Of a DNA stretch of 64,000 nucleotides, positions 40,219 to 63,417 are shown piece by piece. Made by a program: the position numbers and the translations under genes. The notes beneath the pieces are model-generated. The model had not been told where the DNA came from. It saw only the letters and a list, made by a program, of their open reading frames with translations, and made no database searches. How positions within the stretch are numbered: position 1 is the stretch's first letter; each line of letters starts with the position of its first letter. This DNA comes from Streptomyces sp. SID14478 (GTDB lineage: Bacteria; Actinomycetota; Actinomycetes; Streptomycetales; Streptomycetaceae), in contig NZ_JAAGMG010000142.1 of the NCBI RefSeq assembly GCF_010548525.1, positions 1 to 64,000 of the forward strand, written 5' to 3'.

Positions 40219-40253
40219 CGCAATCGCCCCCCGTCATAGGTCGGCTCAGTCTG

Positions 40254-40673: not shown

Positions 40674-40736
40674 AGGCCGCGCCTTCACCATGGCAATGTG
40701 AACCCGCCAAATCCCCGTCTTGGCACGGGAGTTCAG

Positions 40737-47109: not shown

Positions 47110-47122
47110 AGAACTGCCCCCT

Positions 47123-47401
47123 TCAGCGTGTCCGCACCCCGACGGCGGGTCCGTGAGGCCCCGGGGACCGGCGGTGGTGCGGTCGTGCGGGCCCCATCAG
47201 TAGCTGTCGCTCCAACCACCGGTCGACGAGGCCCTCGTACGGCGCGTACGGCGCCTGCATCGGCCGGGGATCGCACCACCGTCGCCCGTCCGAAGACCGG
47301 CAACGCCAACACCCGGCAATGTCAGGGGAATCATTGCGCTCACTCGCCGACTCAGGAGTCAATTCTTCACTGTTGTCCGAATACGGCCAGTAGCTGACCA
47401 T
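47123..47401 (-). CDS. Hypothetical Cys-rich protein, 92 residues, upstream of the YVTN gene
   Basis: The ATG at 47401 has AAGGTGTCGG upstream and the stop is 13 bases before the YVTN start, so the two probably form an operon. MVSYWPYSDNSEELTPESASERNDSPDIAGCWRCRSSDGRRWCDP: acidic start, then Cys-x2-Cys and a third Cys that could bind zinc, then YAPYEGLVDRWLERQLL. The first half is less GC3-biased than the second. Not recognised. Confidence 0.45.
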   Translation of the reverse strand: MVSYWPYSDNSEELTPESASERNDSPDIAGCWRCRSSDGRRWCDPRPMQAPYAPYEGLVDRWLERQLLMGPARPHHRRSPGPHGPAVGVRTR

Positions 47402-47590
47402 CCGACACCTTGACGCTGGGCCGAGCGGCGCTGCGACACTCAGCCACTGAGTTGCTGGGCGGGGCCGTGCCAGACGGGTGCCGCCATCTGTACCCGCACG
47501 ACTCGGAGTACGCCGCCAATGCTGCACTCTTGACCCGATCATGGAGACTCCGGCGACCTAGATGCACCGACGAATGGCAGGATTCGCCAC

Positions 47591-48160
47591 GTGACGGAGT
47601 ACACGTGGCCGAAGGGTGTCGGTGGTGCGAGGCCTGAGGACATACGGCATGCCTGGCCGGCGACGAAGGCGGCCCTACCTATCGGTGCCACCGTGAGTGG
47701 CAAGGTCGTCGGGCGGCAGCCCTTCGGCGTCTTTGTGCAGATCGACGGCGTCAACGATGCCATGGGCTTGGCAGAGATCTTCGCCGCGCCGCCAGGAAGC
47801 GTCCCTCCGCCACTGGGGTTCATGATCAGTGGGCATGTTGTCGCGCATGCAGATCACAACTGTCAGGTCCGGCTCAGGCTCGACGACTGGGGTGGCGAGC
47901 GTGCAGCCCTGCCGCTAGAACCCCATGAGCGACTCGCCGATCGCGAAGCCTTGAGCGGTTTCCTGAGGCGTCTTCGAGAAGACTTCGAGGCAGCAGGCGC
48001 CCAGTGGGAAAATCGAACACTGGACACTTTCCTGGAAGCGCTGGAAGCGTGGGTATCGGACGCGCCGGGATGGTACGCGAATCATGACCAGGAGCTACCG
48101 GCCGACGGCGACTGGCAGTTCATCGCTCGGGCCCTGAGCGCGGCTCGGTTCTACGAGTGA
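47591..48160 (+). CDS. S1 RNA-binding domain fused to DUF7660-like domain
   Basis: 189 residues from GTG 47591. Residues 28-85 read as an S1/OB fold: PIGATVSGKVVGRQPFGVFVQIDGVNDAMGLAEIF and GHVVAHADHNCQVRLRLDD. Residues 112-189 (FLRRLREDFEAAGAQWENRTLDTFLEALEAWVSDAPGWYANHDQE) match the DUF7660 pattern seen in stand-alone Streptomyces proteins with conserved W and D-W-Q-F-I-A-R-A-L. The fusion is unusual. Function unknown; RNA binding by the N-terminus is likely from fold. Confidence 0.75.
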   Translation: MTEYTWPKGVGGARPEDIRHAWPATKAALPIGATVSGKVVGRQPFGVFVQIDGVNDAMGLAEIFAAPPGSVPPPLGFMISGHVVAHADHNCQVRLRLDDWGGERAALPLEPHERLADREALSGFLRRLREDFEAAGAQWENRTLDTFLEALEAWVSDAPGWYANHDQELPADGDWQFIARALSAARFYE

Positions 48161-48244
48161 CGCCGTACTCCTCCGCCCGCCGCGCGTACAGACCGCGGGC
48201 GCACGGCTGCGGGGGCACTCGCAATATCTGCAGGTCGGTACTGG

Positions 48245-48316
48245 TCAGCTCCTCCGTGACTTGATGAACCACACGGCGGCGACGGCGAGGACGACGAGGA
48301 CGATCAGAAACTTCAT
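48245..48316 (-). CDS. Micro membrane protein, 23 residues
   Basis: MKFLIVLVVLAVAAVWFIKSRRS: a single hydrophobic helix with basic end, as in small bacterial membrane peptides. CACGAGGTTCTC precedes the ATG. Coding is plausible but hard to prove at this length. Confidence 0.35.
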   Translation of the reverse strand: MKFLIVLVVLAVAAVWFIKSRRS

Positions 48317-48678
48317 GAGAACCTCGTGCCCACGATCACGGTGGATAGTCCGTGAACACCTCAGGCGCACCTCGCCGACGCGACAGCCCCTCGACGAGCC
48401 ATGGCGCCGCTCCCGCGGATTCCCCTTGTTGCCGGCCGCTCCCCCACGGACCACCCCACGCCTCATGCAAGGCGGCCACGTCGCGGGCACTCCCCCACTC
48501 GGGCGGACCTCAGAATGCTACTTGCGCTCGCCCCTTCTCCTCCCCTGGCTGTTCCGCATGAGCCCCGTGCCTCGCTCCGCGCCTCCCCCAGCCCGATCCT
48601 GATGTCTCTGCCCACAACGCGGCGCGGGGCCGGCCCGAAGTGGGCCGGCCCCGCGCCGGGTGTGTACCGCTCATGGGA
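48317..48678. other. Intergenic with strong hairpin
   Basis: No gene is supported; the terminator at 48621-48659 is the only clear structure. Confidence 0.5.
48621..48659 (-). terminator. Perfect 17-base hairpin after CsbD gene
   Basis: Arms 48621-48637 and 48643-48659 pair exactly around GAAGT. It lies 20 bases after the CsbD stop on the minus strand. Confidence 0.75.
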
Positions 48679-48852
48679 TCAGTGCTTGCCCATGTCCTTC
48701 GCGGACTCCTTGGTCTCGCGGGCCGCACCCATCGTCTTGGCCGCGCGGCCCTTGGCGGTCAGGCGCTCGTTGCCGACGGCGCGTCCCGTGGCTTCCATGG
48801 CGGCGCCCGCAGCCTGCTCCGCCTTCGCCTTGGCCTTCTCACTCGCGGTCAT
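48679..48852 (-). CDS. CsbD-like stress protein (copy 1)
   Basis: 57 residues from the ATG at 48852: MTASEKAKAKAEQAAGAAMEATGRAVGNERLTAKGRAAKTMG. Small, Lys/Ala/Glu-rich and helical, with the GNERLTAKG block of CsbD proteins. CsbD is a SigB-dependent stress protein in Bacillus of unknown mechanism. A near-identical gene lies at 57362, with a similar upstream stretch (GCGGCCA, then GTCAGCACAT-like). It fits the sigma factor and phosphatase genes in this region. Confidence 0.85.
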   Translation of the reverse strand: MTASEKAKAKAEQAAGAAMEATGRAVGNERLTAKGRAAKTMGAARETKESAKDMGKH

Positions 48853-49040
48853 GCTGTTCACCATCCGTTCCATGGACTGCAATGTGCTGATCTTCGACTG
48901 GCCGCTTCTCGTCCGGCTAAACCCGCCGGTGTGGAAGGAGTTTTTCGTGCTTGGGGCCGTCGTGCGGCTCCTGGTCCGGTGCATTCGTCCGGGAACGTCG
49001 TGGGGGACGAATGCCCTCGCGAAGCGCCACCCGTGAGGCG

Positions 49041-49610
49041 CTATCCGCGCTCGCGCCCGACGAGAGGCTTCGTGGCGGCGTCGGCCGGCCGGGGGGTCGT
49101 GTCCTCGTCGCGCAACGCGGCGTCCATGACGTGCAGCCGACGGTTCTGCAGCCCGCTGAAGTACGTCAGCCAGGAAACGAACACCACGGTCAGCACGGAG
49201 AATCCGACGATCTGCCGGGGCCCCGCCGTGAGGCCCATGAGGACGGTGATCGTCACGAACATGACCGCCATGAACACGAGCGCCGCCTTGCGATGGCGTG
49301 TCCGGTGCAGGCGCTGGTCGACCAACTGGCGCATCGCCTGTCGTTGGCCGGGTTCGGTGGGGACGTCCCCGGAGCGCAGCCTGCGGTCCAAGGAGATCAG
49401 GCCGTCCGTGTCACCGGCAGCACGCTTCTCCCTGCGCCGGATGACCAGGACGACGACGATTCCGCCGACCGACGTGGACGCGGTGCGGGACAGGACCGCG
49501 GCGAACGAGCCCTGCGGGTAGAGGAGTTGGACGAGCACGGCGCCGACTAGTACCGCCAGCGCCATCTGGACCCAGAGATGCTTGGCGAGAAAGGTGTTGA
49601 CACGTTCCAC
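49041..49610 (-). CDS. Membrane protein with four hydrophobic segments, 189 residues
   Basis: The GTG at 49610 has GGAGGGG seven bases upstream, so the longer frame is rejected. V/M-ERVNTFLAKHLWVQMALAVLVGAVLVQLLYP and GGIVVVLVIRRREKRA form a first membrane pair, then a 50-residue basic cytosolic region, then AALVFMAVMFVTITVLMGLT and IVGFSVLTVVFVSWLTYF. The tail is acidic. Unknown function; similar proteins occur in several Streptomyces. Confidence 0.75.
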   Translation of the reverse strand: MERVNTFLAKHLWVQMALAVLVGAVLVQLLYPQGSFAAVLSRTASTSVGGIVVVLVIRRREKRAAGDTDGLISLDRRLRSGDVPTEPGQRQAMRQLVDQRLHRTRHRKAALVFMAVMFVTITVLMGLTAGPRQIVGFSVLTVVFVSWLTYFSGLQNRRLHVMDAALRDEDTTPRPADAATKPLVGRERG

Positions 49611-49717
49611 GGCGGTCCCCTCCGCTCGACGGCTGGAGCACCCGCATACCCCTGCCGACACCCCGCACGCGGCCGTCGCGGCGCAGGATGCGGAGGTCCG
49701 CCGTCCGCCGTCGTGCC

Positions 49718-50758
49718 TCAGTCGACCTTTTCCTCGTCGCGCTCGTCCCAGGCCTGGGTGTCACGCGGCTCGATGAAGGGCTCCGAATCCTCCGGGTGAC
49801 CGGCCTCCACGGCGCGCTGCCGGGCCAGCTCCGCATCGAACTCCAGGCCGAGCAGGAGCGCGAGGTTGGACAGCCAGAGCCAGACGAGGAAGACGATGAC
49901 GCCCGCCATCGCGCCGTAGGTCTTGTTGTACGAGGCGAATCCGGAGACGTAGAAGGTGAATCCGCCGGAGGCCAGCAGCCATACCAGCAGCGCGAGGAAA
50001 CCACCGGGTGTCACCCACAGCCAGCCGCGGCCCTTGATGTTGGGTGTGGCCCAGTACAGCAGGGCGATCATCAACACCAGCAGGATGCCGAGGACCGGCC
50101 ACTTGGCGATCGACCACAGCGTGAGCGCGCTGTCCCCCACACCGACGAAGCTTCCGGCGCGTTCGGCGAAGGACCCGGTGAACACGACGATGAAGGCACT
50201 CGCGGTGGCGAGCAGCATCAGGGCGACGGTGAGGCCGAGCCGCAGCGGAAGGATCTTCCACAGCGGGCGGCCCTCGGGGACGTCGTAGACCTTGTTCGCC
50301 GTCCTGACGAACGCCGCGACGTAGCCGGACGCCGACCACACCGCGAGCACGATGCCGAGCACCGCCATCACGGAACCGGTCCCGGCGTTCCCCTTCAGCT
50401 GGGTCACGGTCGTGGTGAGGAGGTCGCGCGCCGGTCCCGGGGCGAGCGTCTCCAAGTGGTCGAGGATCTTCTTCGTCGCGCTCTCGCCCATCACGCCGAG
50501 CATCGACACCAGGACCAGGAGAGCGGGGAAGAGCGACAACACCGCGTAGTACGTCAACGCGGCTGCGCGGTCGGTGAGTTCGTCCTCCTGGAACTCCCGG
50601 AAGCTGCGCTTGAGGATCGCGCCCCAAGCCTGCCGGGGCAGTTTCAGCGGCGAGTCAGGGGCCTCGCGTTCGACCTCGTCCGCCGGGCCGTACTCCTGCG
50701 GCCCGCGGTCCGCCACCTCGGTGGCGCCTGTGTCTTCGTCGCTCTTTACGTGCGTCAT
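49718..50758 (-). CDS. YihY/BrkB family membrane protein
   Basis: 346 residues from ATG 50758. AILKRSFREFQEDELTDRAAALTYYAVLSLFPALLVLVSMLGV is the family start, with about six hydrophobic helices, including VWSASGYVAAFVRTANKVYDVPEGRPLW and YWATPNIKGRGWLWVTPGGFLALLVWLLAS. The C-terminus is highly acidic. The family was once called RNase BN in error; it is now regarded as a membrane transporter or envelope factor of unknown substrate. Fits the stress/envelope region. Confidence 0.92.
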   Translation of the reverse strand: MTHVKSDEDTGATEVADRGPQEYGPADEVEREAPDSPLKLPRQAWGAILKRSFREFQEDELTDRAAALTYYAVLSLFPALLVLVSMLGVMGESATKKILDHLETLAPGPARDLLTTTVTQLKGNAGTGSVMAVLGIVLAVWSASGYVAAFVRTANKVYDVPEGRPLWKILPLRLGLTVALMLLATASAFIVVFTGSFAERAGSFVGVGDSALTLWSIAKWPVLGILLVLMIALLYWATPNIKGRGWLWVTPGGFLALLVWLLASGGFTFYVSGFASYNKTYGAMAGVIVFLVWLWLSNLALLLGLEFDAELARQRAVEAGHPEDSEPFIEPRDTQAWDERDEEKVD

Positions 50759-51110
50759 GAACACCTAATCACCCGTTCCGGCGCGCGCACGCCCCTAAAG
50801 GAGGCTCCGCTTCCGGATGGGCGAGCGGCCGGGACACTGTCATCGAGCCGGTCGTGGCCACGCGTCCCGTTCGAAGGGGGTCCGTCGAAGTGATCCGAAG
50901 GGGGTCCGTCGAAGTGATCTGCCGCGCGTCATGGATGGTCGTGGTCCCGCGCGGGCAGCCGGGAGTGACCCCCTGGCGGCTGAGATCGCCGACCGGGCGT
51001 GATGATCTCGTCACATAGATGCGCAGCAGCGACAGCACATGGGGCTGCTGCCGACGGTTCCCCTGCCCGCTCTCCGAATCCGCCGAGAGCGTCCCTCAAG
51101 GCGTGCGCAG
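50759..51110. other. Intergenic with 24-base tandem repeat
   Basis: No gene is supported. A tandem duplication at 50872-50919 is the main feature. Confidence 0.5.
50872..50919 (+). repeat. Tandem duplication of a 24-base unit
   Basis: Positions 50872-50895 are repeated exactly at 50896-50919 (unit starts CGAAGGGGGTCCGTCGAAGT). Each unit contains a GTCGAAGTGATC box, so the duplication might double a protein-binding site in front of the YihY gene. Confidence 0.8.
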
Positions 51111-51392
51111 TTATGCGTCCGCCGTCTCGCGCACATGGTGGCGGCGTGCGGATTCCAGGAGGGAGCGCCACGAGGTGACGTCGGGGCGGCGGCGCAGGAG
51201 GGCGCGGCGCTCGCGTTCCGTCATGCCGCCCCACATGCCGTGCTCGATGCGGTGGTCAAGGGCGTGGGCCAGACACTCAGTGCGTACGGGGCACGGCTTA
51301 CAGATGCTTTTCGCGCTCGACTGCGCGGCCCCGACGAGGAACATCTCGTCGGGATTCACGGCGTAGCAGTTCGCTTGCTCTTCCCATTCCAC
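51111..51392 (-). CDS. WhiB-like (Wbl) iron-sulfur regulator
   Basis: 93 residues from GTG 51392. The four cluster ligands are Cys9, Cys31, Cys34 and Cys40 (C-x21-C-x2-C-x5-C), followed by the GMWGGMTERERRALLRRRP turn that contacts sigma factor and DNA. Wbl proteins bind [4Fe-4S], sense NO or redox state and act with sigma factors. Which of the Wbl subfamilies is present cannot be settled by eye. The nearby SigB-type operon makes a stress role plausible. Confidence 0.94.
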   Translation of the reverse strand: MEWEEQANCYAVNPDEMFLVGAAQSSAKSICKPCPVRTECLAHALDHRIEHGMWGGMTERERRALLRRRPDVTSWRSLLESARRHHVRETADA

Positions 51393-51559
51393 CGTGTCCC
51401 ATTGCCCCCGAACGTCACGTGTACGCCGGTGAGTTCGTCAGCGCGACGAATGCCGAGGGCTCAAGTCGGTGTAGTCGTCGATGAGTTCGGTTGTCCGACG
51501 GCCGTGGTCCGGAGAGGCTGAGAAGGTGATCTGCTGCCGGGCGGACGCGCGGGAGGTGT

Positions 51560-51703
51560 TCAGCGGCGACGCAGTCGGCTGAGCCAGGCGCGAGCCTGAG
51601 CCTGCCTGCGGGGGTCCGAGGCGGTCCGGCGGGCCGTGGCGATGACCCGCTTGCCCTGCGGGCTGCGGCTGTACTGCTTGATCTGGTCGAAAATACCGGG
51701 CAT
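51560..51703 (-). CDS. Small basic protein, 47 residues
   Basis: MPGIFDQIKQYSRSPQGKRVIATARRTASDPRRQAQARAWLSRLRRR, with GAAGGAGG six bases upstream of the ATG: a clear translated gene. Very basic and helical. Homologous small proteins occur near stress genes in Streptomyces; role unknown. Confidence 0.75.
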   Translation of the reverse strand: MPGIFDQIKQYSRSPQGKRVIATARRTASDPRRQAQARAWLSRLRRR

Positions 51704-51846
51704 GACGCCTCCTTCGTGGTGACTGTGGTGCGGTGCGGGCGGCGACTCTGCACCCCCGCTCGACATTCCGGTTACCCGGGAAGCGGTACGGAACACGAAA
51801 GAGGGCACAAGGGCGTCGACCACACCGACGAGGAACGGGAGTTCCC

Positions 51847-52026
51847 ATGTTCGCCATCGCCGCTGCCGTGCTGTTTTTCCTGGCCTTCCTGATCAACGCC
51901 GCCGACATCTCGACGAACGACGTCTTCACCTCGGTGAACGTCATGCTCCTCGGGCTCACCGCGCTGGCCCTTCATCTTGCGGGGGCCGGCGGGTGGGCGC
52001 GCAGCAGATCGTCGCGCCGTCGTTGA
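51847..52026 (+). CDS. Small membrane protein, 59 residues
   Basis: MFAIAAAVLFFLAFLINAADISTNDVFTSVNVMLLGLTALALHLAGAGG, followed by a basic tail: two hydrophobic helices with a short acidic loop. GGGAGTTCCC precedes the ATG. A perfect terminator follows at 52075. Unknown function. Confidence 0.75.
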   Translation: MFAIAAAVLFFLAFLINAADISTNDVFTSVNVMLLGLTALALHLAGAGGWARSRSSRRR

Positions 52027-52074
52027 GGCGGCCCGCGCGGCAGCGCGCCCCGCAACGCGTCTGTCGCTCCTGAC

Positions 52075-52130
52075 GGAGTTGAGCCCCGCAACGGCCTCGA
52101 TGAGGTCGGTACGGGGCTCAACTCCTTTTT
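52075..52130. terminator. Strong bidirectional terminator with T-run
   Basis: Arms 52075-52088 and 52112-52125 (GGAGTTGAGCCCCG and its exact complement) with a 23-base loop, followed by TTTTT. It separates the convergent small membrane-protein and sigma-factor genes. Confidence 0.85.
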
Positions 52131-52139
52131 GTGCAGGTG

Positions 52140-53018
52140 CTATTGCTCGGTCATCAATCCTGCCCTGAGGCCCGCGACAACACGGGAGATGAGGCGGGAC
52201 ACGTGCATCTGCGAGCAGCCGATCTCGTCGGCGATCTGCTGCTGGGTGCGCTCCTCGACGAAGCGCAGGTGGAGCAGGCGCCGATCACGCTCGTCGAGGT
52301 CGGCGATCAAAGGCGCGAGGGAGTGGAAATTCTCCACGAGTTCGAAGCGGTCCTCGTCGCAGCCGAGGAAGTCGCCCAGCAGCACCTCGGCATCGTCGTC
52401 CTTGCCGTTGGCCGCCGCGTCCAGGGAGACGCTGTTGTAGCCGTTCGACGCCCTCTGCGCCTCGGCCACCTCGGACGGCTCCAGCTGCATCAGCTCGGCG
52501 AGCTCCGCCGTCGAAGGCAGGCGCCCGAGTCGAGTACGCAACTCCTCGGTGGCCCGGGACAGTTCGAGCCGGGCCTCCTGGAGGCGACGCGGCACGTGCA
52601 CGGCCCAGGACGTGTCCCGGAAGAACCGCTTGATCTCGCCGGTGATGTACGGGATGGCGAAGGAGGTGAATTCGACCTCGCGGCAGAGTTCGAACCGGTC
52701 GATCGCCTTGATCAGGCCGATCGTGCCGACCTGGGTGATGTCCTCCATTTCCTGCGGTCCGCGGTGCTTGAACCGCGACGCCACGTACTGCACCAAGGAG
52801 AGGTTGACCTCGATGAGCACGTTGCGCACGTAGCTGTACTCGTGCGTGCCCTCCTCGAGTTCGGTGAGGCGCGAGAAGAAGTGCCGCACGATACCGCGGG
52901 CGTCCTTCGGCGCGATCGAGGCCGGGTCTGCGTAAGCGCGGGCGAGAAGGCTCTCCTGGTCCGCTTGGTTCTTCTGGGCTGCTTCGTGGGTCTGTGCGCG
53001 TTCTGTCGTATTGATCAT
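52140..53018 (-). CDS. RNA polymerase sigma factor, SigB/SigF/SigG subfamily
   Basis: 292 residues. Region 2 is YVRNVLIEVNLSLVQYVASRFKHRGPQEMEDITQVGTIGLIKAIDRFE, region 3 VHVPRRLQEARLELSRATEELRTRLGR, region 4 LDERDRRLLHLRFVEERTQQQIADEIGCSQMHVSRLISRVVAGLR. This is the stress/sporulation sigma class of Streptomyces, with nine or so paralogues per genome. The start ATG overlaps the stop of the small STAS-like gene, making it the last gene of a four-gene operon with a PP2C phosphatase and a B12-binding protein. Confidence 0.94.
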   Translation of the reverse strand: MINTTERAQTHEAAQKNQADQESLLARAYADPASIAPKDARGIVRHFFSRLTELEEGTHEYSYVRNVLIEVNLSLVQYVASRFKHRGPQEMEDITQVGTIGLIKAIDRFELCREVEFTSFAIPYITGEIKRFFRDTSWAVHVPRRLQEARLELSRATEELRTRLGRLPSTAELAELMQLEPSEVAEAQRASNGYNSVSLDAAANGKDDDAEVLLGDFLGCDEDRFELVENFHSLAPLIADLDERDRRLLHLRFVEERTQQQIADEIGCSQMHVSRLISRVVAGLRAGLMTEQ

Positions 53019-53365
53019 GCGTCCGCCCCTTCGAATCGTGTGCTGCTGTCGTGGTCGGTCATCTGCCGCGCTGGTGGCGCGCCCCCGCAGGGGGCAGGGG
53101 CGCGCCCGGCTCCGGCCGACTCGTGTCCGTGAGGGATTGTTGCCGCCTGGCCGATGACGTGGTCGACGGTTTCGGTGGTGGTCAAAAGCTGGGCCGTCCG
53201 CACCGAGCGTGCGGTGAGGTGCAAGGTCACGTGCTCCTTGTCGAGTCGTTGGCGCCGCGCCAGGAGGGGCGGCGGGTTCATGGCGTCGAAGCCGCTCGAG
53301 TCCGCGCGGTCCGGTCGCAGCCGGCGTGCCGCGGCGGGCTGGATGGCTTCGCGGGCGGCGGTCAC
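53015..53365 (-). CDS. Short STAS-like (anti-anti-sigma) protein, 116 residues
   Basis: The gap between the B12 gene and sigma gene is exactly one reading frame: a GTG at 53365 overlaps the B12-gene stop (GTGA) and its TGA overlaps the sigma ATG (ATGA). Residues 16-65 (LRPDRADSSGFDAMNPPPLLARRQRLDKEHVTLHLTARSVRTAQLLTTTETVDHVI) resemble the second half of a STAS domain, with the DSSG phosphorylation motif at 22-25. The first strands of the fold are missing and the tail is disordered. In RsbV-type proteins this Ser is phosphorylated by an anti-sigma kinase and restored by a PP2C phosphatase. The gene is certain by overlap; the family is inference. Confidence 0.6.
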   Translation of the reverse strand: MTAAREAIQPAAARRLRPDRADSSGFDAMNPPPLLARRQRLDKEHVTLHLTARSVRTAQLLTTTETVDHVIGQAATIPHGHESAGAGRAPAPCGGAPPARQMTDHDSSTRFEGADA

Positions 53366-54486
53366 GCGGTCCCTCCGAGTGCGCAGGCGCTGAGAGCGGT
53401 GCGTGCGGCGGCGAGGGCGCCGGTGGCGCGCGGGAAGTCGATGAGCTGGTGCTCCAGGGAGTCGAGCACGGGCAGCAGGCTCCTCGGCGGGACGCCGCGG
53501 GCCTGCAGGATGTCGGCGGTCCAGGTCAGGAAAGTGGTGAACAGGTCGGCGTCGTCCACGTACACGGCCGTGGCCAGGTACGTGACGATGTGGTCGATGT
53601 CCTCGGCGGTGCGCTCGCGCTGGTACTCGGAGTAGGAGCGCAGGGGCGGGAATGCGGCCTCGACGTCGAGGAGTGCTTGTTTGACCAGCTGTCGTTTCGT
53701 CTGCCTGACCAGCGTGTACTCCTGGTCCTTCAAGTGCGGCAGGTCCAGGTCGGGCAGGCGGGCCGCGGCCGCGGTGGGCCGTTCGAGCCCCTGCATCAGC
53801 ACACGGTGGGCACCGGGGGCGTCCGGAGCCCAGGCGGCCTGCATCTGGTGGGCGTACCGGCCCCGGGGACCGAATGCGGCGCCCCCGGCCATGACGGGGA
53901 CACCCGCGGCCTGGCACGTGCTGATCGCCGTGTGCGCGGTCGGCAGGTGCGCCGGGATGGAGGAGGACAGGAGGACCGCGTCCGTCGGCCGTTGATGGAG
54001 GTGGGCTATCAGGTGCTCGGTGGGCACCTGGGCGCCCAGGTAGTCCACGCGCCAGCCGCGCAGGCGCAGCACCTCGGTGACCAGACGGGCGGGCAGGGCG
54101 TGCCACTCACCGTCCACGCAGGCCACCGTGACCCGGCCCGGGGTGTCCGTGTCGGCCAGTGCTGAGGCTGCTGCGTCGGCGACGGCGGAGACGCAGCGTT
54201 CGTTCAGGGCGGTGGCCGCGTGTTCCTGCGCCACCGTGATGGCGTTGGCCGCCCACTGGATGCCGACACGTTCCTGCACAGGTGCGATCAGCCGCAGCAG
54301 CGTCCGCTCGGCCGCGGCCAGCACGTCGCGCGCAGAGCCCGCGCCCACGGCATGCCGCACCAGGGCTACGGCGTGCGTCTCGTCGCAGGCCATTGCCGCC
54401 TGCCACAGTTGCTCGCGCAGTTCGTCGTCACTGGCCGCCACCTCGTCCGTGGTGGCCTCCGGGGTCATGGGGGCAGCTGTGGTCAT
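53362..54486 (-). CDS. Cobalamin-binding, CarH/LitR-like photosensor domain protein
   Basis: 374 residues from ATG 54486, which overlaps the phosphatase stop. Residues 55-100 are the helical B12 cap: ERVGIQWAANAITVAQEHAATAL contains W78-x9-E88-H89, the motif that covers adenosylcobalamin in CarH photoreceptors. GEWHALP (His129, lower axial ligand) and the Rossmann-like DYLGAQVPTEHLIAHLHQ form the B12 domain. The CarH MerR-type HTH is absent; instead about 150 C-terminal residues form an unknown helical domain. It is a sensor without DNA-binding domain, presumably passing the signal to its operon partners. Confidence 0.85.
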   Translation of the reverse strand: MTTAAPMTPEATTDEVAASDDELREQLWQAAMACDETHAVALVRHAVGAGSARDVLAAAERTLLRLIAPVQERVGIQWAANAITVAQEHAATALNERCVSAVADAAASALADTDTPGRVTVACVDGEWHALPARLVTEVLRLRGWRVDYLGAQVPTEHLIAHLHQRPTDAVLLSSSIPAHLPTAHTAISTCQAAGVPVMAGGAAFGPRGRYAHQMQAAWAPDAPGAHRVLMQGLERPTAAAARLPDLDLPHLKDQEYTLVRQTKRQLVKQALLDVEAAFPPLRSYSEYQRERTAEDIDHIVTYLATAVYVDDADLFTTFLTWTADILQARGVPPRSLLPVLDSLEHQLIDFPRATGALAAARTALSACALGGTA

Positions 54487-56159
54487 GAGGGGAAACCGCC
54501 TTGCGTGGTGCCGTCGACGGCCGCGAGGTAAGGGGTGCGCGGTGCGGTGATGGCCAGCACGGCCATGTCGTCGTGCGGTCCCTCGCCGACCCACTGGGCG
54601 GCGACCATCTGCAGGCGTTCGGTGATCGCTTCGGCCGGCATACCGGCGCACTCGGCCAGCGTGTTGCACAGGCGCTGCTCGTCGAACAGGACGTCGCCGA
54701 GCGGGCCGCCGCGGGCTTCGGTGAGGCCGTCGGAGTAGAGCAGACAGGTCTCTCCCGGTGCGAGGTCGACGGTTGCGGTGGCGACCTTGAGCAGGTCCGT
54801 GGGGAGGACGCCGATCAGAGGGCCCTTGGTCTGCGCCTTTTCCACTCGTCCGTCGGTCCGCAGGATCAGGGGGGCGGGGTGCCCGGCGCTGGAGATCCGC
54901 AGCCGCACGCGGCGTCGCTCGCGTCGTACGGAGGCCAGGGCCAGGGTCGCGAACCGTGTGTGGTGCGAGGTCAGCAGCGCGTTGTTGAGCAGCGTGAGCA
55001 GCTTGAGGTGGTCGGCGGCGAAGGGCAGCAGTGCCTCTATCGTGTTGCGGATCTTCCCGGTCAGTACGGCCGCCTCAAGTCCTTTGCCGCACACGTCGCC
55101 CAGGACCGCGAAGGTCTCCGGGTCGTCGCTGTCGACGGGATAGACGTCGTAGAAGTCTCCGCCGATCCGGTCGGTGGCCGAGGCCGCACGGTAGCGGCCG
55201 GAGAAGTCGATGCCGTGCACGCTCTCGAGCACGGGCGGCAGCAGCTCGCGCATCAGGACGTCCGTGATGTGCCGCTGCTCGGCATAGATCCGCGCCGAGG
55301 ACAGGGCCACGCCCGCGCGGGTGGCGAAGAGCCGGGCGAAGGCCTCCTCGGTCTCGGTGAACGCCGCTTCCTCGCTGTGCCGCAGCAGCACCATCGCACC
55401 GGCGGGTACGCCGTGCCCGGGCAGCGGGACCACCACGAGCGAGCCGATCTGTGCGCGCCCGGCCGTGAACTGCTCCGGGAGCGCCCAGTCCGGCACGAGA
55501 TCCGGATCGATCCATCGTGACGGCACGGGCGGGAAACCCGCCAGCGCCTCCGCGAGGCCGGGCATCTCCTCCGGGTCCAGCGCGATGGTCTCCTGCTCCA
55601 CCGGCTCGCCGGTGACGCACCAGGTGACGGGGTACAGCTGTCCCGAGCTGACGCCGACGACGACCGCCGCGTCCGCGAGATGCGTGGCCGCTATGCGGGC
55701 GGTCACTTCCGCGCACCGGTTCACGTTCAGCGATGCCAGAAGCTCGTCGGACATCTCGTGCCTGGCCCGCGAGCGAGCTCTTTCCTCGGCCAACTCTGCG
55801 CGCAGATGGCGTAGTTCACTGTCGTCGACCAGCCACCACGCCACCTCGCCGCCAGCCGCGCGGCTCGCGAAGGCGTCCACGGTCGCCTCGCCGATCCGGC
55901 CGCGGACCGCCACGGAGGGGCCCGGGCCGTCGCCCACGGCGCCCCGGACGACGTCGGCGTGCGCTTCGGCCAGCCAGGAAGGCGCCACGTCCGCGAGCAG
56001 GGCGCCGGCCCGCAGCCCTGCCAGGAGGGCGCCGGCCCGGTCGTCGCAGGCCATTACGCGTCCCGCCGTATCCACCGTGACAGACGGGTGCGAGGTGCCG
56101 TGGCGGGCAGCGGGGCTGTGGTTTCGGGGGGAACGCGCCGGTTCCGTTGGGGACTTCAT
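54483..56159 (-). CDS. SpoIIE-type PP2C phosphatase with PAS and GAF domains (RsbU-like)
   Basis: 558 residues from ATG 56159 (GTG at 56162 also possible). Residues 25-115 are PAS-like (SVTVDTAGRVMACDDRAGALL), residues 140-310 GAF-like, and residues 320-545 the SpoIIE phosphatase with intact acidic sites: IGGDFYDVYP, LGDVCGKG, LLYSDGLTEA and GPHDDMAVLAI. Such enzymes dephosphorylate STAS anti-anti-sigma factors. It is the first gene of the operon running to the sigma factor, and its promoter region contains a GTTGCC inverted repeat shared with the second phosphatase gene. Confidence 0.93.
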   Translation of the reverse strand: MKSPTEPARSPRNHSPAARHGTSHPSVTVDTAGRVMACDDRAGALLAGLRAGALLADVAPSWLAEAHADVVRGAVGDGPGPSVAVRGRIGEATVDAFASRAAGGEVAWWLVDDSELRHLRAELAEERARSRARHEMSDELLASLNVNRCAEVTARIAATHLADAAVVVGVSSGQLYPVTWCVTGEPVEQETIALDPEEMPGLAEALAGFPPVPSRWIDPDLVPDWALPEQFTAGRAQIGSLVVVPLPGHGVPAGAMVLLRHSEEAAFTETEEAFARLFATRAGVALSSARIYAEQRHITDVLMRELLPPVLESVHGIDFSGRYRAASATDRIGGDFYDVYPVDSDDPETFAVLGDVCGKGLEAAVLTGKIRNTIEALLPFAADHLKLLTLLNNALLTSHHTRFATLALASVRRERRRVRLRISSAGHPAPLILRTDGRVEKAQTKGPLIGVLPTDLLKVATATVDLAPGETCLLYSDGLTEARGGPLGDVLFDEQRLCNTLAECAGMPAEAITERLQMVAAQWVGEGPHDDMAVLAITAPRTPYLAAVDGTTQGGFPS

Positions 56160-56707
56160 CACGTGGGACCCGCTGCGTGCGGGGTCCCCATCATCCTTCG
56201 CTCGGGGTCCTGGGGCGGCAATCAGTGCTGGTTGATTGGCCTAGACTGCTCCATGATCATTACGAATCACCATAGTTGCCATAGGGCAACAGTCGCATGA
56301 TCCAGGGCTCCCGGGCAACCATGCCCACCCTCAGTCGCCCACGGCCCCACCCGCCGACCGAGACCGCCGGCAGTCGTGGGCAGGAGCCGAGTACCACAAG
56401 ACGCAGAAAACGAACCGAATTCGCGGAACCAGTGCGCACCTTCGGCCGACTCACATCCCTTTCTGCCGGCCCTGGCCCTGGGCTCGCATCTCGCGCACCC
56501 TCAGAACCGGGCAGCGGACGGCACGTCGTATTCCCAGGCGCAACGCTTCTCGATGCGTACCACCACGCCCACCCGTGGCTCTCCCCCACAAATCTTCACG
56601 ACTGCACCGGAGATCGTCACGGCGGGGCACGGATACTTTGCGCACAACGGGCACACGAGGGGTACGAGTACCGACAACCTCAGCCCGCGAGAGGTTCACT
56701 TCACCTT
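56160..56707. other. Divergent control region of phosphatase and MarR genes
   Basis: About 550 bases with no supported gene, carrying the inverted repeat at 56275-56290 in an AT-richer patch (56260-56300). Confidence 0.6.
56275..56290. promoter_or_regulatory. GTTGCC/GGCAAC operator candidate upstream of PP2C gene 1
   Basis: GTTGCC ATAG GGCAAC, a perfect 6+6 inverted repeat with 4-base spacer. A close copy (TTGTC ATGG GGCAAC) lies at 58915-58930 upstream of the second phosphatase gene. MarR-type regulators commonly bind such sites and one is encoded next door at 56708. Confidence 0.6.
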
Positions 56708-57205
56708 ATGGACGACAGTGACGGTCGCGCTGACTTCGTCGGCCCCCTGAACTACCCCCGCCCTGCTCTGGCGCCGGAGACGACGGCGGCACTCGACATG
56801 CTCGTGACACTGTGGACGCACACCGCCAGGAACGGCACACCGCAGCTCTCCGCACTGCAACTCCGCGCCCTGCACACCACGCGGACCAGGCCCGGCATCA
56901 ATCTCAGTGCCCTCGCGGGGACCATCGGCACCATGCCGTCGGCCGCCAGCAGGCTGTGCGACCGCCTGGAGGCCGCAGGCCTGATCCGCCGGGAGCCCAG
57001 TCCGGCCAACCGTCGCACGATCGGCCTCACGCTCACCCGGCGCGGGCACAATGCGCTCGATGCCGTGACGGCCCGGCGCGAACGCCTGCTCAACGAGGTA
57101 CTCGACCGCATGCCCACGAGCCTGCGACACCAGCTGCTGAACGGCCTGCACGGCTTCGCCGTGGCGGCGCCCCCGCCCGAGGCCGACGGACCGAAGCCCC
57201 CCTGA
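56708..57205 (+). CDS. MarR family regulator (copy 1)
   Basis: 165 residues from the ATG at 56708 (MDDSDGRADFVGPLNYPRPALAPE). The HTH is LSALQLRALHTTRTRPGINLSALAGTIGTMPSAASRLCDRLEAAGLIRREPSPANRRTIGLTLT. It is a paralogue of the gene at 59104 (both have S-R-L-C-D-R-L-E-A in the recognition helix). It is divergent from the phosphatase operon, so it probably acts on the site at 56275. Confidence 0.9.
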   Translation: MDDSDGRADFVGPLNYPRPALAPETTAALDMLVTLWTHTARNGTPQLSALQLRALHTTRTRPGINLSALAGTIGTMPSAASRLCDRLEAAGLIRREPSPANRRTIGLTLTRRGHNALDAVTARRERLLNEVLDRMPTSLRHQLLNGLHGFAVAAPPPEADGPKPP

Positions 57206-57361
57206 CGGCAGCGCAGCCATGTCCGAGCGCTCCACGGGCGAGCCGCCCGGCCGGAGAAGCCGCTCACCGAGTCCGATCGCACGAAGCATGTTTGCCGCGC
57301 CGCTGAGCGGCCAAGCGAAGGTCAGCACATGATGTCGATGCCAGAAGGACGGTGAGCGGAC

Positions 57362-57535
57362 ATGACCGCCAGCGAGAAGGCCAAGGCAAAGACCGAGCAG
57401 GCCAGCGGCACCGCCAAGGAAGCCGCCGGACGCGCCGTGGGCAACGAGCGCCTCACCGCGGAAGGCCGTGCCCAGCAGATGAAGGGCGACGCCCGCGAGG
57501 CCAAGGAAAAGACCAAGGACATCGGCAAGCACTGA
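57362..57535 (+). CDS. CsbD-like stress protein (copy 2)
   Basis: 57 residues: MTASEKAKAKTEQASGTAKEAAGRAVGNERLTAEGRAQQMKGDAREAKEKTKDIGKH. Same start, length and end (D-x-G-K-H) as the copy at 48679, so they are recent paralogues. GACGGTGAGCGGAC precedes the ATG. It ends just before a 56-base perfect palindrome that acts as terminator. Confidence 0.88.
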   Translation: MTASEKAKAKTEQASGTAKEAAGRAVGNERLTAEGRAQQMKGDAREAKEKTKDIGKH

Positions 57536-57541
57536 GTTCAT

Positions 57542-57597
57542 CACGCATGAGTGAGGGGCGGGCCCACTGCAGTGGGCCCGCCCCTCACTCATGCGTG
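57542..57597. terminator. Perfect 56-base palindrome, bidirectional terminator
   Basis: Arms 57542-57569 and 57570-57597 are exact reverse complements with centre CTGCAG and no loop bases. It lies between the convergent CsbD and phosphatase genes. No T-run flanks it. Confidence 0.8.
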
Positions 57598-57651
57598 GCT
57601 CTTCCCCGGAACGCGCATGCTCCGTTCCCGGCGGCGCGGCACGGGCCGACC

Positions 57652-58833
57652 TCAGGCGCGGGCGTCGCGCCCGAACCAGTCCAGGCACAACACCAGTGCG
57701 TCATCGCCGACTTCCGGGCCGGGGCCCGCATCCAGGTACTCGGACAACTCCTGCAGGATCGCGCGCGGCACGGCCGCCGCCGGCAGCAGGCGCGCCGCCT
57801 GGATCGCTCGCCCCAGCATCTTTTCGCCGAAGGCCTCGCCCTTGTCCGACAACGCGGCGAACACGCCGTCACTGACGAACACCAGACGGTCGCCCGGCAC
57901 CACCTGGAACTCCTGCGTGACGTAGTCGGTCTCCTCGAACATGCCCAGCGGCAGCTGCGCGTCGAACGGGACGTGCTCCACCGTCTTGCCCCGATGCCGC
58001 CACAGCTGCGGGGAGCCTCCGTCGACGACCTCGACACGGCCGGTGTCCAGGTCGAACGAGAGCAGCAGCGTCGCCACGTACTCCTCACCGCGGTACTGCG
58101 CGAACAACGCCTGATCGGCCAGTGCCGCCTGGTCCGCGATGCCGATGCCCGCTCGTCGTGCGTTGCGCAGGGCGTTGACGGCCAGGCTGGTCAGCAAGGC
58201 CGCCTGGATGCCCTCACCCATGCCGTTGGTGACGCTGAGGGTGAGGGTGTTCTCGGTCTCGGCCCAGTCGAAGTTGTCGCCGTAGATGGCGTACGCCGGC
58301 TCCAGCTGAGCCCCGATCGCGTACTCCTTGCCGCCGCAGGCCCGCCCGGGAAGGAGGTCCCACTGCACCTCGGCCGCCAGCGTGAGGCGGTTGGCCCGGC
58401 GGGCCTGGAGGTAGACGTCCGTGTCCCGTTCCGCGACGAGGATCTCGTGCCCGATGACGTCGGCGATCGCGGTGATCTCGTCGACGACGTGCGGCGGCGC
58501 CTTCTCCTCCGGCAGTCGCACGGACAGGATTCCGAGCCGGTCTCCGTGCGCGGTCACCGGCACGTGCATCTCGATGGAACCCTCATGCCGGACGGTCTGG
58601 ACACGCTCACGGCTGTCGAAGGCCCGCCCCTCGGCACTGCCGCGGACCGGCAGGGGCCGCCCGCCGGCCGGAGCGCCGGTAACGGACTGAAGCACCTTGG
58701 AGCTGTAGTCGACGAGGAGCAGATCGACGTACAGGGCTCCGTAGTACTCGGCCAGTGCGGCACGCGCCGCGGGAAGGAGGTCGTACGGTGCGGCGGTGCG
58801 CAGCGCGCGCTCCACAGCCAGGAAGTTCGTCAC
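57652..58833 (-). CDS. GAF and SpoIIE-type PP2C protein with altered metal site
   Basis: 393 residues from GTG 58833, chosen because GAAGG lies six bases upstream. Residues 1-150 are GAF-like (VDLLLVDYSSKVLQSVTGA, GILSVRLPEE). The phosphatase-like part has YGDNFDWAE for GGDxFD, SVTNGMGEG where active enzymes have GDxxGHG (Asp replaced by Asn), FVSDGVFAAL and GDDALVLCLDW. One metal-binding Asp is therefore missing at the conserved G-D position, so catalytic activity is doubtful or altered. Its upstream region carries the same operator motif as the first phosphatase gene. Confidence 0.85.
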   Translation of the reverse strand: MTNFLAVERALRTAAPYDLLPAARAALAEYYGALYVDLLLVDYSSKVLQSVTGAPAGGRPLPVRGSAEGRAFDSRERVQTVRHEGSIEMHVPVTAHGDRLGILSVRLPEEKAPPHVVDEITAIADVIGHEILVAERDTDVYLQARRANRLTLAAEVQWDLLPGRACGGKEYAIGAQLEPAYAIYGDNFDWAETENTLTLSVTNGMGEGIQAALLTSLAVNALRNARRAGIGIADQAALADQALFAQYRGEEYVATLLLSFDLDTGRVEVVDGGSPQLWRHRGKTVEHVPFDAQLPLGMFEETDYVTQEFQVVPGDRLVFVSDGVFAALSDKGEAFGEKMLGRAIQAARLLPAAAVPRAILQELSEYLDAGPGPEVGDDALVLCLDWFGRDARA

Positions 58834-58914
58834 GGCAGCCTTCGTTGGTGGTGCGAGCACAGCTCAGCGGTGGTCGGGACATCGGGCCGAACAAATCGTC
58901 GCCGTCGAGCAAAT

Positions 58915-58930
58915 ATTGTCATGGGGCAAC
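58915..58930. promoter_or_regulatory. GTTGCC/GGCAAC-like operator candidate upstream of PP2C gene 2
   Basis: ATTGTCATGGGGCAAC matches the site at 56275-56290 in 12 of 16 positions and keeps the right arm intact. It lies 82 bases upstream of the GTG at 58833. Confidence 0.5.
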
Positions 58931-59103
58931 GGTTGAGTGTATCTCCCCCGTCTGTGCGGGAGCGCGGAAGTGAGATCCGGCCTCCGATGGCCTGCGACCT
59001 TCGACCTCAAAAGACCATGAACGCAGACATACCGGCGCGGCTGGAGAGACCCGCCCGACCGACGCCGGTGCGCGCACCCACGCAGCCCGGCCGACGTGGC
59101 GGG

Positions 59104-59601
59104 TCAGGCGATCGCCGAAGCGTCTTCGTCCTCGGCCGGGTGCAGGCCGACATGCGCCCTCGCGGCCTGCTGCAACTGCTCCAGCCCCTCAGCCAGGATG
59201 CCCAGGTGCGCCGGCGCCATCGTCTCCAGCACCGCCTCGACCTCGCGCATACGCGCCTGGCGCAGTTCCTCCAGGACCTTCGCACCCTGGGCACTCAAGG
59301 TCAGCTCGACCTCGCGCCGGCTCGTCGCGCTGGGAATCCGCTCCAGCAGACCCGTGGCCTCCAGCCGGTCGCACAGACGGCTGATGGAGGACGGCCCCGT
59401 GCCCAGCACGTCACCCAGCGTGCGCTGGTTGACGCTCCGCTGCGCCTCGATCACCTTCAGGGCCCGCAGCTGCGAAGGAGGAATCGGCCCCGACGGCGCC
59501 TTCTCCTGCGCCCGCCCCCACAGGACCTCGAGCAGTTCGGCCACACGGTTCGCGGTGTCTGCCACCTGCTCGGGATTACGGGGCGGAAGATTTCGGGGCA
59601 T
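59104..59601 (-). CDS. MarR family regulator (copy 2)
   Basis: 165 residues from ATG 59601 (MPRNLPPRNPEQ), with GAGGGTG upstream. The HTH is SQLRALKVIEAQRSVNQRTLGDVLGTGPSSISRLCDRLEATGLLERIPSATSRREVELTLS. Paralogue of 56708. A perfect CTCTCT-GCT-AGAGAG inverted repeat lies just before the gene, a likely autoregulatory site. Confidence 0.9.
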   Translation of the reverse strand: MPRNLPPRNPEQVADTANRVAELLEVLWGRAQEKAPSGPIPPSQLRALKVIEAQRSVNQRTLGDVLGTGPSSISRLCDRLEATGLLERIPSATSRREVELTLSAQGAKVLEELRQARMREVEAVLETMAPAHLGILAEGLEQLQQAARAHVGLHPAEDEDASAIA

Positions 59602-59611
59602 TCTTACACCC

Positions 59612-59626
59612 TCTCTGCTAGAGAGT
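59612..59626. promoter_or_regulatory. Inverted repeat upstream of MarR copy 2
   Basis: CTCTCT GCT AGAGAG, a perfect 6+6 repeat about 10 bases upstream of the start codon and overlapping the ribosome site. Confidence 0.5.
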
Positions 59627-59867
59627 GACACGGCTGGCTGTCGAGCTTACCGTCACGCACAAACTGCCCGGAACAGCAGGCACGGCGACGACGCCCCGAA
59701 GGGGCCCGGCGGAGACCTACCCGATTGCGGCACGGGCCGGGGCCGAGCCCTGTCTCACCGTGAGGCAGCTACCCGCCCCTCGCCGCGGGTGGCGACGGTA
59801 CGCCCCGGACCGGCGGGATGTCTGGGGGCCCGGTCACCGCCCCGCCCCCAGCCGGCAGACCGCCTCG

Positions 59868-60386
59868 TCAGCCGCGGCCCAGCACACGTCGCGCGGAGCG
59901 GCGCTTGAGGTAGAGCGGCAGGCCGTACCAGCACAGCGCGAACCACAGAAGAACCGATCCTGCAAAGATCTCGGCCAACAGATCCGGCAGCACCACGTGC
60001 AGGATCAACAGCACCGTGCCGCTGATGGTGAGCGAGAGCAGCACCAGCCCGGTCACCATGAGCCGTCCGGCAATGGCCACGAGGTCGTCCTTCATCTGCT
60101 GGCCCGTCAGGAACCGGTGCAGCGAAACCGGAGCGATCAGCGCCCCGGTGGCCGCGGCCCCCAAAATCACGGTCGCCACATAGACGTGGGTGTCGAACGC
60201 GCTGAGATCGTCGAAGCGCGCGGTGAAGGCCACGCTCAGCAAGAACCCGAAAAGAATCTGGACCCCGGTCTGCGCGACGCGAGTCTCCTGCAGCACCTCG
60301 GCCCACCGCCGATTGACTCTCTCGTGAGCCTCCTCCCGACTGTCACCCGCAGATATGTCCGGTCTCGCTCGCTCGTCCGTGGTCAC
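59868..60386 (-). CDS. DUF6328 membrane protein
   Basis: 172 residues from GTG 60386, with GAAGGAGG upstream. RWAEVLQETRVAQTGVQILFGFLLSVAFTARFDDLSAFDTHVYVATVILGAAATGALIAPVSLHRFLTG is the DUF6328 signature with four helices, followed by LVLLSLTISGTVLLILHVV and a last helix. Unknown function; common in actinobacterial stress regions. Confidence 0.88.
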   Translation of the reverse strand: MTTDERARPDISAGDSREEAHERVNRRWAEVLQETRVAQTGVQILFGFLLSVAFTARFDDLSAFDTHVYVATVILGAAATGALIAPVSLHRFLTGQQMKDDLVAIAGRLMVTGLVLLSLTISGTVLLILHVVLPDLLAEIFAGSVLLWFALCWYGLPLYLKRRSARRVLGRG

Positions 60387-60515
60387 GACCGCCTCCTTCG
60401 TAGAGACGTCACATGCCCACCCTCCCGGCATTTACGACTGCACGTCCCCTGGTCACACCGCACCGCACCTACGGCGTGAAGGGGTCAGGCCGCTCAAGGC
60501 CGGACGGAAACAGAA

Positions 60516-60555
60516 AGCGAGGAGGGGCAGCCCGTCCGGGCTGCCCCTCCTCGCT
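60516..60555. terminator. Perfect 19-base hairpin
   Basis: Arms 60516-60534 and 60537-60555 pair exactly around two bases. It lies 34 bases after the SRPBCC stop on the minus strand (60589). Confidence 0.75.
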
Positions 60556-60588
60556 CACAGGACGCGTCGGTCGACTACGCCCACGGCC

Positions 60589-61029
60589 TCACAAGTCGGC
60601 CTTGTCGGGATGGGCCGTCACTTCGGCGAGCTTCTGGAACTCCCCGAGGTCGTAGTTGGCCAGGGCCGCGTCGAGGTTCGTCAGGGCTCCGAGGCGTTCG
60701 ATGAAGCCCTTCGGGTCGTACTCGATCTGCAGGGTGACGCGGCTCGTCGTATCGCTCAGGCGATGGAACGTCACCACGCCGGCATGATGCACACCCTCGA
60801 CGGTGTGCCAGGCGATGCGATCCTGCGGAATCACTTCGGTGAGCTCGGCGACGAAGTTCTTGTCCGCACCCGGCAGTTCCAGCTGCCAGGCGAAGCGGCG
60901 TTCGTCCAAGGGCTCCACGAGGCGGACGTGGCTGAGGAAAGCAGGCCAACGCGAGACGTCACTCCACAGCTCCCAGGCCGTGGAGACGGGAGCGTTGAGA
61001 TCGATGGACTCGAGCAATGACGCGGACAA
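60589..61029 (-). CDS. SRPBCC (polyketide cyclase/dehydrase-like) family protein
   Basis: 146 residues from a TTG at 61029, chosen because AGGAAAGGGG lies at ideal distance before it. SASLLESIDLNAPVSTAWELWSDVSRWPAFLSHVRLVEPLDERRF is the SRPBCC start; HTVEGVHHAGVVTFHRLSDTTSRVTLQIEYDPKGFIERLG follows. The fold binds hydrophobic ligands. Such proteins in Streptomyces stress regions are of unknown role. Confidence 0.87.
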   Translation of the reverse strand: MSASLLESIDLNAPVSTAWELWSDVSRWPAFLSHVRLVEPLDERRFAWQLELPGADKNFVAELTEVIPQDRIAWHTVEGVHHAGVVTFHRLSDTTSRVTLQIEYDPKGFIERLGALTNLDAALANYDLGEFQKLAEVTAHPDKADL

Positions 61030-61235
61030 GAGTGCCCCTTTCCTGAGGTGAACAGAGCGGGACCCCTTCGGTTCGTGTCGGTCGCCGCCGTACGTCACTC
61101 CGGTACCCCGCCAAAGCGGGCACACGCGGGGCACTTGTTCCTGGCGTCGCGCACAACTCCTTCGTATGAGCGGGCCGAGTCGGGACATTCGTATCAGCGA
61201 ACCCGCCCCTCTCCTCCGTACCAGGGAGCACCGCC

Positions 61236-61469
61236 GTGCTGATGCCCGACCCGAAGTTCGTCCGCACACTCCTGGGCCGTTACGCGGAGCTGCAGATGCG
61301 CTACGCGGAAAAGCCGTGCCAGGAGATCCGCTGGCAACTGGACGATGTTGCCTACACGTTGTGCGTCAGCACCGGTACGCGCACGATCCCGGATGCTCTG
61401 GCGGTGGCCGACCGAGTACTGCAACAGGCAGCGGCCAACGGGCCGGCCCATCCCACCCAGGCGGCTTGA
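61236..61469 (+). CDS. DUF5133 protein
   Basis: 77 residues from GTG 61236, with CCAGGGAGCACC upstream. MLMPDPKFVRTLLGRYAELQMRYAEKPCQEIRWQLDDVAYTLCVSTGTRTIPDALAVADRVL contains the DUF5133 block ending in Y-T-L-C-V-S-T-G-T-R. A small cytosolic helical protein of Streptomyces; function unknown. Confidence 0.88.
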   Translation: MLMPDPKFVRTLLGRYAELQMRYAEKPCQEIRWQLDDVAYTLCVSTGTRTIPDALAVADRVLQQAAANGPAHPTQAA

Positions 61470-61664
61470 CCCGCCAGCGCACAGCCGCGGACGAGTCCGA
61501 CAGCAGCGCCGGTCCCGTCTCGGAAGTTGCGCCCATACCGTGGACATCACCCCGGACGTCGCCCTCCCCCGGCCGACCGGAAAGCAGCAGCCGGACCGCC
61601 GTGTGAAGAGATCGTGACGGGGCAGTGGATGTCGTGGCCCTGACCCCGACACCCCGGAGACTTC

Positions 61665-62876: not shown

Positions 62877-63215
62877 TCCACCGCCGCAGGGCCCTCCGGC
62901 CGGCCTGAAACGGGAAGCCGCCGCCGCGCCTTGAACTGAGGTTGTGGGTGGGGACCCAGCACTGCAGCCGCCAACGCCCCGCGCACCCGGGTTCTGTCCC
63001 GGGTGCGCGGGGCGTTGGCGCGGCCCACATCGGCGATCAGGTCCGCGAGCGTCAAAGCGGTGTCAGCGCCGAGGCACTCACCGAGCTCGGCCGTGCAGAT
63101 CGTCGCGGGGCACTCACCACCACCGGCATGTCCCCCACTCCCACCGCCATCCAGAACTCCGGCTCAACAACTCGGTTCCGCTCGGCTTCGGCCGGACAAC
63201 AGCGCGTGTACCGAC
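62877..63215. other. Intergenic with strong terminator
   Basis: Only the hairpin at 62969-63020 is supported. Confidence 0.6.
62969..63020. terminator. Perfect 23-base hairpin
   Basis: Arms 62969-62991 and 62998-63020 pair exactly with a 6-base loop, about 90 bases after the cardiolipin synthase-like gene and before the convergent small membrane gene. Confidence 0.8.
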
Positions 63216-63407: not shown

Positions 63408-63417
63408 GTCGTCCTCC

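Follow-up and report, generated by a model that had tools for sequence, protein, structure and literature searches.

Gene organization of the operon

Four genes on the minus strand, at positions 52140 to 56159 of a 64,000-nucleotide stretch of Streptomyces sp. SID14478 (contig NZ_JAAGMG010000142.1, positions 1 to 64,000; hereafter, the window), were analysed, and judged from their sequences there is about an even chance that this operon supplies the light input to a partner-switching system of the SigB type. In the operon order, the products are a PP2C (SpoIIE-type) phosphatase with a GAF domain (54483..56159; 558 amino acids (aa); assigned by Pfam and motifs), a probable photocobilin with a B12-binding domain and a C-terminal bilin-binding globin domain (53362..54486; 374 aa; assigned by Pfam, phmmer, and fold match), the product of what looks like a decayed STAS (anti-anti-sigma) gene (53015..53365; 116 aa; assigned by comparison with L044, the L-numbers being labels of related loci), and a SigB/SigF/SigG-type sigma factor (52140..53018; 292 aa; assigned by TIGR02980). 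Translation confirmed these four genes and the three 4-base overlaps between them (ATGA, GTGA, and ATGA in the operon order), as described in the original prediction.

The phosphatase and sigma factor identities proposed in that prediction were also borne out. The phosphatase matched GAF (1.4e-5) and SpoIIE (2.6e-42), and the catalytic motifs GGDFYD, GDVCGKG, YSDGLTEA, and HDDMAV, expected of the SpoIIE/PP2C member of a SigB-type partner-switching module, were all present; no HATPase match was found in it by the Pfam/NCBIfam search. Its nonsynonymous and synonymous substitution rates (dN and dS) were 0.155 and 0.428 (dN/dS 0.36) in the comparison with L044 alone. The last gene product matched TIGR02980 (E = 9.6e-82; 274 bits, cut-off 234.35), which places it among the SigB/F/G-type sigma factors, and by its dN/dS (0.15-0.27 with three relatives) it is under purifying selection. 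No match was obtained with the Rfam search of positions 47000-64000 or with the tRNA search of the whole window.

The putative photocobilin

The 374-aa protein had been predicted to be a CarH-like B12 sensor lacking the MerR domain. The assignment to the B12 photoreceptors and the absence of MerR were retained, but the protein is more precisely a probable photocobilin, whose C-terminal part is a bilin-binding globin domain. Pfam matches to B12-binding (PF02310; 4.9e-15) and B12-binding_2 (PF02607; 8.5e-12) were obtained, and the predicted W-x9-EH motif was found as W78-x9-E88-H89; together with H129, these residues supply the W-xn-EH and E/DxH motifs of the CarH-type B12 domain. With phmmer, query residues 24-367 matched SasPcob, the photocobilin of Saccharothrix syringae (Protein Data Bank (PDB) 8J2W/8J2X), at E = 8.3e-74. 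The AlphaFold2 model (mean predicted local distance difference test score (pLDDT) 86.5; alignment of 13) had 8j2w_A as its best Foldseek match (43% identity, template modelling scores 0.79/0.89, 351 columns), and in the fold ranking the three SasPcob chains came first, followed by AbPcob and then CarH. The five-helix bilin-binding globin domain at the C terminus was recovered by both phmmer and Foldseek.

The chromophore residues of SasPcob given in the part of PMC10979010 used here (Trp61, Glu71, His72, His108, Asp270, and Trp296) were aligned with W78, E88, H89, H129, D296, and W322, respectively; for this mapping the paper numbering was reduced by 6, the sole offset between -12 and 12 that fits all six residues. 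The biliverdin contacts Asp270 and Trp296 thus correspond to D296 and W322, and all six residues of the B12 and biliverdin sites are kept. A DNA-binding regulator of the CarH/LitR type was also considered and ruled out: no MerR-type Pfam match was found at E<=1, and NF052513 (CarH), which has a cut-off of 400 bits, scored 50.5. The photocobilin gene had dN/dS of 0.25-0.27 with three relatives. Matches to it at E<=1e-3 occur in 87 of 199 genomes of the genus (best E <=1e-40 in 75), and the source genome has three copies.

The probably decayed STAS gene and the kinase

The third gene product had been called STAS-like, and this was not upheld. No STAS match was found in the 116-aa product at E<=1 (Pfam/NCBIfam), whereas the L044 counterpart matched STAS (PF01740; 2.9e-14); the 116-aa product therefore reads as a remnant. 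The claim of decay rests on three differences from L044. First, a 111-nt (37-codon) in-frame deletion was found. Second, the phosphoacceptor position reads DA in the window and DS in L044 (serine to alanine), so that the phosphoacceptor Ser/Thr of the STAS member of a SigB-type module is missing; of the 61 STAS stretches aligned from relatives, 56 have Ser or Thr here, four a different residue, and one a gap. Third, a 2-nt difference close to the 3' end lets the window frame miss the L044 stop and stay open as far as the start of the sigma gene, and in L044 the STAS stop lies 70 bases ahead of the sigma start; the third gene overlap thus looks secondary, a product of the frameshift.

The dN/dS of the remnant was 0.67-0.81 with three relatives, compared with 0.46-0.66 for intact STAS pairs; as the intact pairs are already so high, the ratio alone was set aside as weak proof of decay. 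The AlphaFold2 model of the remnant (pLDDT 61.3, predicted template modelling score 0.30) had no strands and no STAS fold, although no control model of an intact STAS protein accompanied it. Since the assembly is a draft of 1499 contigs, an assembly error may be behind the deletion.

As predicted, no RsbW-type kinase gene adjoins the operon, so that the HATPase member of a SigB-type module is missing from the locus. The nearest HATPase-like stretch found on the contig (40848-41144, plus strand; 19.8 bits, below the Pfam cut-off) lies 11 kb away. It forms part of a row (39301-41273) of an XRE-like regulator, a short DUF397-like gene, and the HATPase-like gene, by look a triad common in Streptomyces; the two neighbours are taken by us to be of the XRE and DUF397 types. 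In the source genome as a whole, 46 PF13581 domains were found at E<=1e-5.

Closest relatives and paralogous loci

In the photocobilin tree, the window forms a clade with L043, L044, and L045 (Shimodaira-Hasegawa-like approximate likelihood ratio support, 99), and a sigma gene is present in all of them. The gene order is PP2C-photocobilin-STAS-STAS-HATPase-sigma in L045, HATPase-sigma-PP2C-photocobilin in L043 (no STAS found), and PP2C-photocobilin-STAS-sigma in L044 (no HATPase within the 10-kb flanks); that in L047 and L056 is sigma-STAS-HATPase-PP2C-photocobilin-STAS. An RsbW-type HATPase gene thus does accompany the sigma gene in the close relatives L043 and L045.

The source genome has two paralogous loci. 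Contig C1418 carries PP2C-photocobilin-STAS-HATPase and, 6 kb further on, STAS-HATPase-sigma, which makes a full set; on contig C58, a STAS-HATPase pair and a sigma gene are separated from the photocobilin by about 16-18 kb. Identities of the window sigma factor are 85% with its counterpart in L045, 81% with that of C58, 79% with that of C1418, and 79-80% with those of L043 and L044. On the contig of the window, past the window end (L123, 14368-15827), a STAS gene overlaps a second SigB-type sigma gene, whose product is 74% identical to the window sigma factor.

Conservation of the gene neighbourhood

Conservation of the neighbourhood had been named beforehand as a check on the prediction. For the scan of named genomes, the best 80 loci of at least 467 photocobilin relatives were used (61 from Streptomyces, of which one is labelled Kitasatospora, 14 from Mycobacterium/Mycolicibacterium, 3 from Nocardia, and 2 from Streptacidiphilus), with flanks of at most 10 kb, less where a contig ended. 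The control consisted of 80 regions of 20 kb (1.6 Mb); it was raised from 40 regions (sigma in 2/40) to 80 (3/80) after the first count was known. A SpoIIE-type phosphatase sequence lay directly upstream of the photocobilin in 79 of the 80 loci (the first rule found 78, and L116 was added; that of L069 is a piece of only 61 residues, and that of L099 is split over two frames), none being found there in L068. A STAS gene followed the photocobilin in 58/80.

Sigma genes were found in the flanks of 13/80 loci and in 3/80 control regions (Fisher test, P = 0.008), and in 9/80 loci a SigB-type sigma gene lay no more than 2 kb from the operon, compared with 0.8 expected. RsbW-type HATPase domains were found in 41/80 loci and 13/80 control regions with a rebuilt profile (P = 2e-6); both P values ignore kinship. 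This profile gave 37/80 within 2 kb, a generous figure in which the distance is measured from open frames and not from domains. The first HATPase profiles were poor (one of them had lost three of its ten seeds to stops and a fourth because its locus was short); the corresponding counts were 30/80 loci against 10/80 control regions, and 26/80 within 2 kb against 2.0 expected. On the photocobilin tree (83 rows), the presence of a sigma gene within 5 kb requires 8 changes, at least 4 of which are forced by the starred branches. In sum, the check held for the phosphatase-photocobilin adjacency and for the enrichment of sigma and HATPase genes, but the sigma gene itself is a neighbour in a minority of the loci.

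Candidate transcriptional control and flanking genes

A palindrome, GTTGCC-N4-GGCAAC (GTTGCCCTATGGCAAC; 56275..56290, no strand assigned), lies 115 nt ahead of the phosphatase start and is a candidate operator. The identical palindrome is found in L044, inside a longer conserved block and 111 nt upstream of the phosphatase gene. The strict form was found in 2 of the 80 named loci (L044 and L045), both times beside MarR genes, and not in the 1.6-Mb control; it occurs once more in L125, a stretch of the source genome, far from the MarR-like gene there, and L043 has no site within 3 mismatches. A divergent gene for a MarR-family regulator (56708..57205, plus strand; the start codon was chosen by hand inside the open reading frame 56297-57205), with a counterpart at the same place in L044, encodes a candidate binder of the palindrome. 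Transcription of the operon is probably governed by a MarR-type regulator that acts on the palindrome.

Further upstream, there is a gene for a second SpoIIE-type protein (57652..58860, minus strand; 402 aa), in which the metal-site motifs are altered (GDNFDW and TNGMGEG) and which is possibly a pseudo-phosphatase. A GTTGCC-type site related to the palindrome lies ahead of it (58915-58930), and a gene for a second MarR-family regulator adjoins it (59104..59631, minus strand). Both genes are syntenic in L044, as is that for a WhiB-family protein 3' of the sigma gene (51111..51392, minus strand). Two stretches on either side of the operon, 48679-48984 (minus strand) and 57359-57532 (plus strand), are similar to each other (72% over 58 residues); each presumably encodes a small CsbD-like protein.

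Interpretation

Under the partner-switching reading, light would break the Co-C bond in adenosylcobalamin, either directly (green) or by way of biliverdin (red), and the resulting shift in the quaternary state of the photocobilin would alter the phosphatase. The phosphatase would dephosphorylate STAS proteins, which would then capture RsbW-type kinases and free the sigma factor. The step from photocobilin to phosphatase is suggested by their near-universal adjacency, and that from STAS and RsbW to the sigma factor by the enrichment and by the fuller modules of the relatives. The light- or B12-driven partner switch of the original prediction thus stands as regards the linkage of a B12 photoreceptor without MerR to SpoIIE, STAS, and SigB-type sigma genes; as drawn, it cannot run on local parts, since the local STAS gene looks decayed. 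With no kinase nearby either, the last steps, if they run in the source genome, would use a STAS protein and a kinase from elsewhere, most plausibly from the C1418 and C58 loci. The window sigma factor itself may be controlled in trans by kinases encoded elsewhere, may be free, may be contacted directly, or may be governed in transcription through the MarR-type palindrome.

Several observations weigh against the partner-switching reading. Locally, the STAS gene looks decayed and the kinase gene missing, and the strict GTTT-N13-17-GGGTA, a SigB/SigH-type consensus, has no site in the window. Among the relatives, a sigma gene is missing from the fetched flanks in 67/80 loci, and the flanks of all 14 mycobacterial loci are free of both sigma and HATPase genes. 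In the eight loci of the clade L048-L055 the phosphatase-photocobilin pair stands alone, with no STAS, HATPase, or sigma gene found near, which suggests that this pair is the minimal unit. Orphan sigma genes of the SigB type are common: at other sites of sigma relatives (69-82% identity), a HATPase domain (weak in one case) lies within 5 kb in 7/15, and these seven include the C1418 and C58 copies of the source genome itself. Heme oxygenase, the source of biliverdin, is encoded in the source genome, but it was discarded as a co-occurrence test, being present in 181 of the 199 genomes of the genus, so that its presence says little.

Unlikely, but deserving serious attention, is the possibility that the photocobilin and the phosphatase serve STAS proteins of other systems and that the sigma factor has lost its switch, being controlled in transcription (MarR-type) and independent of light once synthesized. 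The STAS deletion with the lost serine, the lack of a nearby kinase, the conserved palindrome, and the isolated pair in L048-L055 would all agree with this; however, the dN/dS of the sigma gene is still low, the L044 operon also ends in a sigma gene, and kinases encoded by paralogous loci could still bind the window sigma factor. Rather improbable is a neighbourhood that is a by-product of the tendency of stress and regulatory genes to cluster in Streptomyces, in which the photocobilin regulates the phosphatase and the sigma factor has no functional tie to them. The low share of loci with a sigma gene and the varied arrangements within the window's own clade point that way, but the enrichment over the control, the several independent gains or losses that the tree requires, the gene overlaps, and the HATPase-sigma pairs found next to the operon in several lineages argue otherwise. 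Direct control of the sigma factor by the photocobilin or the phosphatase in the window lineage, in place of STAS and RsbW, would accord with their integrity beside a decayed STAS gene and an absent kinase and with the light-driven quaternary change described for photocobilins (PMC10979010, in the part used here), but it is very improbable, as no sigma-binding surface was seen (none was sought in the sequence) and remote control is simpler with 46 PF13581 domains in the genome. If true, it would be a B12/bilin light switch that acts on RNA polymerase in one step, operated by a photoreceptor without DNA binding.

As for the partner-switching reading, the repeated linkage of photocobilins to SpoIIE, STAS, RsbW-type HATPase, and SigB-type sigma genes in actinobacteria offers a testable output, namely, light input to stress sigma factors, and makes the photocobilin modules a candidate for optogenetic control with red and green light. 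The window copy would be a module that is losing its central parts while the dN/dS of the sensor, phosphatase, and sigma genes stays well below 1.

Comparison with known systems

In the SigB partner switch, the RsbU/RsbP phosphatase, the RsbV STAS protein, and the RsbW kinase act together, and YtvA is the light input of the Bacillus stressosome. Phosphatase, STAS, HATPase, and sigma genes are likewise found together in L045 and other relatives; in contrast, the sensor here is a putative photocobilin, and in the window the STAS gene looks defective and an RsbW-type gene is lacking nearby. The CarH/LitR photoreceptors (PDB 5C8D) share the B12-binding half with its W-xn-EH and ExH motifs, whereas the window protein lacks the MerR DNA-binding domain and has an additional globin domain.

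Photocobilins were characterised in vitro in 2024, and the part of PMC10979010 used here leaves the cellular targets of the standalone ones open. According to that part, photocobilins are converted by green light via adenosylcobalamin or by red light via biliverdin, their quaternary structure changes with light, and light turns on the output of a photocobilin-diguanylate cyclase fusion. This fusion, AbDPcob (PDB 8J2Y), shares the sensor fold and is a precedent for a light-activated output, but its enzyme is fused to the sensor, the identity in the fold match is 28%, and its equivalent of Asp270 is His (PMC10979010, same part), whereas the window protein keeps Asp. The standalone SasPcob is alike over its whole length, in domain order, and in the six chromophore residues; the window operon differs in ending with a SigB-type sigma gene and in having what looks like a decayed STAS gene. 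In the cited part of PMC10151467, photoglobins are treated as homologues of the globin domain of RsbR, and since RsbR is a SigB stressosome sensor, this fits a mechanism leading from light to a SigB-type factor.

At the level of titles and abstracts, no other paper joining photocobilins to a SigB-type sigma operon was found in the open-licence literature searched. The network analysis in the same part of PMC10979010 already suggested STAS and SpoIIE/PP2C proteins as partners of SasPcob in Saccharothrix, and the present comparison suggests that the operon with a SigB-type sigma factor is the part added to that link.

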